From Myxococcota bacterium (lineage in GTDB: Bacteria > Myxococcota > JAJVIH01), in contig JAJVIH010000010.1 in NCBI GenBank assembly GCA_022072125.1, forward strand, positions 1 to 40,710: DNA of 40,710 bases, in the 5' to 3' direction. Shown here piece by piece: positions 38,985 to 40,710 of this stretch (within the stretch, counting starts at the first letter, position 1; each line of letters begins with the position of its first letter). The position numbers and the translations under genes are program-made. A model generated the notes under the pieces. It searched no databases, had not been told where the DNA came from, and saw nothing but the letters and a program-made list of their open reading frames with translations.

Positions 38985-39111
38985 GAAAATCAAGGCCATG
39001 ACACCCGCCAGCGCACGGGATTGCAATCCCCACCCTGGCTCATGGATGGTCTTGCCCGCGCCCAGAAAACCCCATTTCCGCACGCTTGGGCGCATTCCCG
39101 TGAAGGGACGA

Positions 39112-39149
39112 TTCATCCCCGCGTTCATCCCCCGCGGATGAACGGTTTT
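39112..39149. repeat. Three TTCATCC units at 12-base spacing; the last pair forms a hairpin before T5
   Basis: TTCATCC at 39112 and 39124 and its reverse complement GGATGAA at 39136 are exactly 12 bases apart. The second and third form a perfect 9-base dyad CGTTCATCC / GGATGAACG with a 5-base loop, followed by GTTTTTG, so on the plus strand it also looks like a weak terminator. It may be a protein-binding array, a terminator, or both. Confidence 0.5.
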
Positions 39150-39162
39150 TGCGGCCGGGGCG

Positions 39163-39192
39163 TGTCACCTTGAATGGTGACAAAAGGTGACA
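39163..39192. repeat. Three TGTCACC/GGTGACA heptamers, operator-like
   Basis: TGTCACC at 39163 and GGTGACA at 39176 form a perfect inverted pair 6 bases apart. A further GGTGACA at 39186 is in direct orientation, 10 bases (one helical turn) from the second. This arrangement is typical for cooperative DNA-binding proteins such as ribbon-helix-helix repressors, and the next gene seems to encode one. Confidence 0.5.
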
Positions 39193-39401
39193 GGGTGCGG
39201 GTTTTGGTCGCGTGCAGGTCCGCGGAAAATCAGCGGAAAGCCGATTTTTCTCCGGATGCCCATGAAAATCACCATAATCAGGGATGAGCATGGGGAGACG
39301 AGCGCCATCACGGTCTCGCTCCATCGTTCAAAAACGAACACGGGGAAAGTGGAAGATCGTGATCCCGCCCCACGAAAGGAGTCCTCTGAAAGGAGAAACG
39401 C

Positions 39402-40541
39402 ATGATTGACAAATTCACGATATCCGTCCCGGGCGCGTTGCTCGCCGCCATCGTGGCGGCGCTCGCGGCGGCGGGCGGACGATTCAACACCTGGCTGCGC
39501 GCTGGGATTTTCTCCGCCGTCCTGTTGACGAAACGTCATGATGACGTTCTGTCAATGGAGCAATTCGATCTCCGCAAGTTCCAATCCCCGACTCTTCACC
39601 ACGTTCTTCCGGAGGCGATCCGCAATCTCCGCTCTGATCACCAAACGGTTGCGGCGCTTCGCATCACCAGCGGCAGGGAAAAAACGCGGGACCGCGCGGA
39701 GACTGGCGTTCACGGCGATGCGGAAAATCCGCGGCGGAAAAAAACGGAGCGTTTCTGCGGTTACGATCGCCGCGATCTGGTGACGGTATGGGAGGATGGC
39801 CATCCGCATACGCACGCGCTGCGTCCGCCGTCGCCGCTGCCGGGCGAGGATATGCTGCCGATGCGCGTCATTCGCGAGTGGCCGCTGCTGCCGGAGTGGC
39901 TGGTCGAACACGATCCGTATCAGGAGTTGCTCAGCGAGGATGAGCGCGTCTTCTCGCATTTCCGCAAGCCGCTCTATCGCGCGCTCGCGGTGGGCAAATG
40001 CGCGTGGTCCGATCTGTTTCTCGCCAACGACGATTCGTACGAGCGCGACGACACGCGCGCCTCGCTCTTCGGGCGGAGCGCGTTCGTGGATCATCCGATT
40101 CTCGGCATGCGCTGGGGGCTGATCCGGCGCGCGGTGGCCATTTACAAGCATTTCCGCGAGATGCCGGAGGGGCCGCGCGAGCAGTTGGGGCTGCTGCAGC
40201 ACCTGTATATCTCGCGGATGGACCGCCACAACGACCGCGTGAAAATGGTCTGCTACGCGGCCGAGAAAAAACTGACCACGCGCGAGGTGAAGATGATGAC
40301 CGACGCCATCGCGCACGCGCGCCAGAAAAAAATTCCGCTGGCGGCGGTGTTTCCGGAGTTCGTGATGCGGCGCGCGGCGTGGGCGCCGGATGTGCAAAAA
40401 GCGAAGGCGCGCAAATCGCGGGAGACGCGGCCCGCGATTCCGTGGCGGAGCATCGCGGAGGAAATCGGATTGGGCCCGCAGTTGCGCGCGCTGGAGTTCA
40501 TGATCGGGCCGCGCGCGGGATATACGCCGGCGATGGCCTGA
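39402..40541 (+). CDS. Unknown protein with ribbon-helix-helix-like N terminus
   Basis: 379 residues. AAAGGAG lies 6 bases before the ATG, one of the best ribosome sites in the window. Residues 5-36 (FTISVPGALLAAIV, then GRFNTWLRAGI) follow the ribbon-helix-helix pattern of a strand, helix A, a GR turn and helix B; a membrane helix is the alternative reading. The middle (about 85-125) is basic and hydrophilic. The C-terminal ~220 residues are mostly helical with no family I know (HFRKPLYRALAVGKCAWSDL, FVDHPILGMRWGLIRRAV, IAEEIGLGPQLRALEF). Codon choice leans to GCG, CTC and CCG more than in neighbouring genes, and the part around 39560-39660 is less GC-rich at third positions, which hints at transfer. 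It has no apparent link to the divIVA side. Confidence 0.6.
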   Translation: MIDKFTISVPGALLAAIVAALAAAGGRFNTWLRAGIFSAVLLTKRHDDVLSMEQFDLRKFQSPTLHHVLPEAIRNLRSDHQTVAALRITSGREKTRDRAETGVHGDAENPRRKKTERFCGYDRRDLVTVWEDGHPHTHALRPPSPLPGEDMLPMRVIREWPLLPEWLVEHDPYQELLSEDERVFSHFRKPLYRALAVGKCAWSDLFLANDDSYERDDTRASLFGRSAFVDHPILGMRWGLIRRAVAIYKHFREMPEGPREQLGLLQHLYISRMDRHNDRVKMVCYAAEKKLTTREVKMMTDAIAHARQKKIPLAAVFPEFVMRRAAWAPDVQKAKARKSRETRPAIPWRSIAEEIGLGPQLRALEFMIGPRAGYTPAMA

Positions 40542-40641
40542 GCGCCGCATCCGCGCGGCGCGTGCAAGGATCGCCCTGGAGGATTTTATCTGCGCCGCTC
40601 TCACGCCGCGGGATGCGCTTCGCGATATTCGTGGAGGAAAA

Positions 40642-40710
40642 ATGATCGCGGTCCACGGAATGAGTCTCGCGACATGCAATGGCGGGAAGATGCGCGATCG
40701 CGAGGCGGAA
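40642..40710 (+). CDS. Start of an unidentified gene, cut by the window edge
   Basis: An ATG with GGAGG 5 bases upstream opens a frame of 23 codons (MIAVHGMSLATCNGGKM onwards) that stays open to the last base. It follows the unknown gene by 100 bases on the same strand and may be its partner. A 10-codon frame ending at 40645 overlaps its start as ATGA. Nothing can be said about function. Confidence 0.45.
   Translation, partial: MIAVHGMSLATCNGGKMRDREAE

Follow-up and report, generated by a model that had tools for sequence, protein, structure and literature searches.

A conserved three-box site in the leader of an orphan gene carried by a dispersed repeat in a Myxococcota genome

Two adjacent heptamer arrays in the window (i.e., the whole 40,710-nt stretch of DNA analyzed) sit at the left edge of a dispersed repeat, of which approximately 16 copies occur in this single genome. 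One of the arrays, a three-box site (TGTCACC-N6-GGTGACA-N3-GGTGACA; positions 39163 to 39192, forward strand), was found in 14 copies of the element and at three stand-alone loci. We give about an even chance to this array being a DNA operator or recognition site within an orphan gene's leader (i.e., a putative cis site specific to the repeat family), and we favor this reading over a structured RNA leader and, further behind, over an end site for a mobility protein. The other array consists mostly of the arms of a terminator-like hairpin. The repeat itself, which matches no recognized element, is a more interesting find than the site that it carries.

Two heptamer arrays at the left edge of a repeat

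All six heptamers described in the first-pass annotation were located at the claimed positions, orientations, and spacings, inside 39112 to 39192. TTCATCC occurs at 39112 to 39118 and 39124 to 39130, with inverted GGATGAA at 39136 to 39142 (12-base steps), and TGTCACC occurs at 39163 to 39169, with GGTGACA at 39176 to 39182 and 39186 to 39192 (13- and 10-base steps). The window has four clusters in which three heptamers, identical or inverted, fall within 45 bp, two of them being these triples; simulated sequence of the same composition gave a chance expectation of 0.8 (order-1) or 1.4 (order-4) per window. Either triple taken singly is weak evidence given that the number is near chance, and the presence of two triples inside 81 bp is unusual. 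Since spacing alone is weak evidence, conservation has to decide. Every one of the 14 element copies that extend far enough has an intact TGTCACC dyad, whereas the exact TTCATCC triple was present in only 2 of the 14 (the window copy and that on contig C51, which is identical to the window over 201 bp).

The TTCATCC units starting at 39124 and 39136 are the arms of an intrinsic-terminator-like hairpin (CGTTCATCC-CCCGC-GGATGAACG followed by GTTTTTG; 39122 to 39151, forward strand), in which a 9-bp G+C-rich stem (39122 to 39144) precedes a T run on the same strand. Across the copies, similar hairpins form a mosaic in the left segment (e.g., ATCCCCGCGTGATTCCACGCGGGGAT followed by TTTTGTTTTT). In 9 of 14 copies, the 230 bp preceding the TGTCACC array held at least one terminator-like hairpin on the forward strand, as compared with approximately 0.1 per copy expected from shuffles, and none was detected on the minus strand of the same region in the 14 copies. 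No multimeric binder is needed to explain the TTCATCC half of the finding; for the 39112 unit alone, the explanation as a chance heptamer still stands. The hairpins of the left segment probably act in transcription termination, in which case they would fence the leader off from transcription arriving from the left, and the TTCATCC units would be the remains of one or more of them.

The first-pass annotation took the spacing to suggest binding of one or two multimeric proteins, or a replication or recombination site, and named absence of the arrays upstream of homologues as a refutation; its interpretation is supported in part. The TGTCACC/GGTGACA array passes this test, as it occupies the same position in every copy that reaches the region, and fits a protein-binding or other cis-acting site; the TTCATCC array fails it. 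Because the TTCATCC units are mostly hairpin arms in a copy-variable segment, the two do not form parallel arrays for one multimer. Of the two arrays, one is thus a truly conserved site and the other mostly an ordinary terminator-like hairpin. A text search of the literature for the heptamers gave no paper that could be linked to a site of this kind.

The three-box site as DNA or as RNA

Boxes 1 and 2 were invariant in 14 of 14 element copies, and box 3 read either GGTGACA or GGCGACA, the T-to-C change occurring in 5 of 13 element copies and also in a stand-alone module on contig C20. Farther along the forward strand, the leader contains a conserved hairpin (AAAATCAGCGGAAAGCCGATTTT; 39226 to 39248), which lies in the least variable noncoding stretch (pi of approximately 0.01), a distal motif (TGCCCATGAAAATCACCATAAT; 39257 to 39278) with a fourth, inverted half-box (TCACC; 39269 to 39273), and a Shine-Dalgarno-like sequence (GAAAGGAG; 39388 to 39395) that is conserved in the copies and precedes the ATG at 39402.

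Two diverged stand-alone modules (approximately 120 to 130 nt, without the open reading frame [ORF]) are headed by the three-box array, one upstream of a terminase large subunit gene (C1:190679-190801) and one upstream of a SpoIID-domain gene (C20:8148-8274). A decayed trace of the array lies at C52:10502, between convergent gene ends. Identity to the window was 29/30 (C1 module) and 26/30 (C20 module) over the array and 22/22 and 17/22, respectively, over the distal motif, and only 33/64 and 28/69 over the segment in between. Given that the middle of the modules has diverged to approximately 40 to 50% identity while the array and the distal motif are kept together, these two parts are selectively conserved. 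The terminase gene (Terminase_6N; L043:505-1293), which has the stand-alone module approximately 0.8 kb upstream, is possibly part of a prophage remnant.

The array could in principle consist of chance heptamers in a GC-rich intergenic region that were carried along by recent copying of the whole repeat. The near-chance number of three-heptamer clusters and the lack of conservation of the TTCATCC triple agree with this explanation, but the copies differ at approximately 25% of synonymous sites with boxes 1 and 2 unchanged, and the stand-alone modules keep the array in spite of their diverged middle. For TGTCACC/GGTGACA the chance reading is largely refuted, and we consider it very unlikely. 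Replication-origin or partition-type iterons, the alternative raised in the first-pass annotation, would share the directly repeated boxes at helical-turn spacing. Against it stand the approximately 16 copies scattered over the chromosome, the absence of Rep, Par, and helicase genes, and the lack of any plasmid or phage match. There is no sign of a replication origin, and the iteron explanation is the least probable of those that we weighed.

In the explanation that we favor, TGTCACC/GGTGACA would be one cis site composed of a 20-bp dyad (TGTCACC-N6-GGTGACA) and a third half-site one helical turn further, with the conserved motif and its fourth half-box approximately 65 bp downstream of the array, all preceding the orphan gene's ribosome site. 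The cis site would control or mark the element, and it may be read by a DNA-binding protein that is either the product of the element or a regulator of the host. The arrangement, a conserved dyad with a repeated half-site upstream of a gene, is that of an operator, and a third half-site exactly 10 bp from the dyad makes a DNA site the more natural reading. Genome-wide, all matches to the dyad with 0 or 1 mismatch belong to the element family, and those with 2 mismatches look like background; the site therefore does not mark a general regulon. Outside this genome, none of the genomes or the viral, phage, and plasmid collections searched gave a match. Several observations count against an operator: the orphan protein has no recognizable DNA-binding domain, the array lies approximately 210 bp upstream of the ATG, no sigma-70-like promoter was detected in the array region, and the position of the C52 copy between convergent gene ends would be an odd place for an operator, although that copy is decayed. 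Moreover, boxes 1 and 2 could equally form an RNA hairpin, which counts against a reading as DNA only.

The 120- to 130-nt module from the array to the distal motif may instead be a structured RNA leader that controls the downstream gene, through a box 1/box 2 hairpin, through pairing of box 3 with the distal TCACC, or as a switch in which box 1 pairs alternatively with box 2 or box 3. In the RNAalifold consensus, box 1 pairs with box 2 and the distal motif with box 3, further conserved hairpins are present in the leader, and the fold of 39130 to 39300 is more stable than shuffles (z of -2.6), its best structure pairing the region differently. The box 1/2 stem is identical in 14 of 15 sequences, and the single change, in box 1, keeps a G-U pair. 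However, the covariation term is unfavorable (+0.53), with any double change in only 2 of 33 pairs; the GGC for GGT change of box 3 is uncompensated; and no Rfam family matches the locus, a search over it and related loci returning only a tRNA near one copy. Neither covariation supporting the box 1/2 helix nor a known RNA family was found among these sequences, which are very similar to one another. An RNA leader is unlikely in our estimate, though it is the strongest competitor of the DNA site.

The dispersed repeat and its orphan gene

The window holds the left approximately 1.65 kb of one repeat copy (39058 to 40710, forward strand); homology with the other copies starts between 39058 and 39073, and the window ends before the right end. 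In the genome searched (3.97 Mb; 78 contigs), a query of 39050 to 39420 returned 18 matches, mainly at contig ends, and the protein of the ORF at 39402 to 40541 matched 19 places, mostly cut by contig ends. Combined, the DNA and protein matches amount to 16 left and 16 right ends. Contig C1 (L028) carries the one copy that is fully assembled, with a UPF0102 (yraN-type) gene on one side and a HEAT-repeat gene on the other; all other copies are split by the assembly, so that the pairing of ends and the exact copy number (approximately 16) are not fixed.

The repeat is approximately 1.9 kb and up to approximately 2.1 kb long and comprises, in order, a variable left segment, the conserved leader, the ORF, a post-stop hairpin, a variable tandem-repeat stretch, and a conserved right-end module that ends near CGCCCGTTGTTGAGAGC. 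Its copies are multiple and intergenic, with abrupt ends and unrelated contexts; the neighbors include glnA and genes for a 2-oxoacid dehydrogenase acyltransferase (E2), an acyl-CoA dehydrogenase, and a sigma-54 response regulator, among others. The post-stop hairpin (GCGCCGC-ATCCGC-GCGGCGC; 40542 to 40561, forward strand) follows the stop codon directly and showed no variation in 12 copies. It lies within a 40-base stretch without variation in these copies, the 3' region being otherwise variable. The right-end module (L028:2016-2092 and 16 other loci) holds GATCTTTGACAACCAAATAGCAAGCGAAAGC, a sequence that by eye resembles rRNA-type boxA antitermination leaders. A diverged stand-alone right-end module was also observed (L095:1591-1646), upstream of an ORF that by eye resembles NADH dehydrogenase subunit J.

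The orphan gene (39402 to 40541, forward strand; 379 amino acids [aa]) has no detectable relatives outside this genome. Between copies, codons 114 to 379 (39741 to 40538; the boundary is also given as approximately 115) are under purifying selection, with a dN/dS of approximately 0.12 at a median pairwise dS of approximately 0.25 and no stop in 2,629 codons. Codons 1 to 113 look unconstrained as protein (dN/dS of approximately 0.8 to 0.9 in two blocks), and there is little DNA variation in the leader and the first 50 codons. Within this 5' part of the ORF, where conservation is at the DNA rather than the protein level, lies a near-perfect 31-bp palindrome (TTGACGAAACGTCATGATGACGTTCTGTCAA; 39525 to 39555) that gives an opposite-strand self-match in five other copies. 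The element copies are old, yet all are intact where readable; partial copy C76 has a single-base gap near its contig end.

No credible match to the 379-aa protein was found in Pfam, PHROGs, NCBIfam, or PADLOC, and its single row against PDB (E value, 0.17) was not credible. The protein has no recognizable DNA-binding domain or known transposase domain and no Y1_Tnp/HUH family match. Searches by tblastn against phages and plasmids and scans of IMG/VR and GTDB genomes returned nothing outside this genome, and no relative of the orphan gene or the repeat was detected in 194 other genomes of the phylum (up to 195 genomes scanned), the compared genomes being no closer than the phylum. Weak matches in other genomes (query R1; E values of 0.04 or higher) were judged to be due to chance. 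AlphaFold models (pLDDT of 36 for the whole protein and 42 for residues 114 to 379) were too poor to use.

Mobility and comparison with known systems

If the orphan protein had a transposase- or recombinase-like activity, the array could bind the mobility machinery of the element, in the manner of the multiple end-binding sites of Tn7 or Mu. The multi-copy, intergenic occurrence with abrupt ends, an ORF kept intact, and an array near the left edge fit this proposal, as does the placement of the complete C1 copy in a block that has a 36-bp direct repeat, unique in the genome, on either side. However, the right end is without GGTGACA boxes, the left end varies between copies, terminal inverted repeats and a known transposase domain are absent, and the 36-bp repeat also encloses a Kelch-gene remnant of approximately 0.75 kb. 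Flanking repeats elsewhere were sought only at lengths of at least 16 bases, with copies split at contig ends, and none pairs the other ends. No inverted repeat joins the two ends of the complete C1 copy, and no transposase of a known family was found in Pfam, PHROGs, NCBIfam, PADLOC, or PDB. We regard an end-binding function of the array as improbable, behind both the operator and the RNA leader.

The 36-bp repeat (GGGGGGGTTCACACCGGAAATCGGTTGCATCCTCTC) occurs exactly twice (C1:143715-143740 and C1:140979-141004; minus strand of L028 at approximately 4745 to 4710 and 2008 to 1973), flanking the complete copy and the remnant of a Kelch-lipoprotein gene. We rejected it as a clean target duplication, as the 2.7-kb block also holds the Kelch-type remnant and has no equivalent at other copies. 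Tandem Kelch-type repeats related to this remnant are present at L102, L103, and L101 (C34:34429-35272, C59:238-1098, and C42:22541-25450, respectively). Retrotransposition was likewise rejected because the only reverse transcriptase (RT) found is a single defense-type RT (DRT, UG19). This 701-aa protein (L127:1108-3213; G000 C31 near 40202 to 40624) matched the RT_UG19 model with an E value of 4e-138 and is the only RVT_1 match in the genome.

With abrupt ends, unrelated contexts, and relic modules, the repeat behaves like a mobile family but fails two tests for insertion sequence (IS) elements, namely terminal inverted repeats and a transposase of a known family, and we do not assign it to any family. 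We tentatively entertain the possibility, short of a probable one, that it is an undescribed mobile or selfish element, with approximately 16 diverged copies, an orphan protein of no known fold or relatives that purifying selection has kept intact, and a three-box recognition or control site, and that it spread in the absence of inverted repeats and of any known transposase. If the repeat is indeed mobile, its orphan protein may represent a new transposition or homing activity, for which the three-box site would be the first DNA candidate. If it is not, a multi-copy orphan gene under strong selection, in a host with no sampled close relative, is still unexplained.

Compared with known systems, the repeat shares with IS elements its multi-copy, intergenic occurrence, one intact gene under selection, and a length of approximately 1.9 kb, but it differs in having no terminal inverted repeats, no known transposase domain, and copies that are old (dS of approximately 0.25) yet intact where readable. 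Its intergenic location, terminator-like hairpins, and relic modules without the gene are shared with MITE/REP-type repeats, including the rho-independent terminator-like SPRITE elements of pneumococci (PMC10969869); unlike these, the repeat carries a conserved protein gene, is far longer, and has no terminal inverted repeats. As in RAYT-REP systems (REP-associated Y1 transposases), multi-copy palindromes lie near a gene, but this gene is without a Y1_Tnp/HUH match. Among regulatory sites, operators of the OmpR/PhoB type are direct repeats and those of the CRP/TetR type are dyads, with half-sites about one helical turn apart. The three-box site shares this half-site layout and differs from such operators in being confined to one repeat family.
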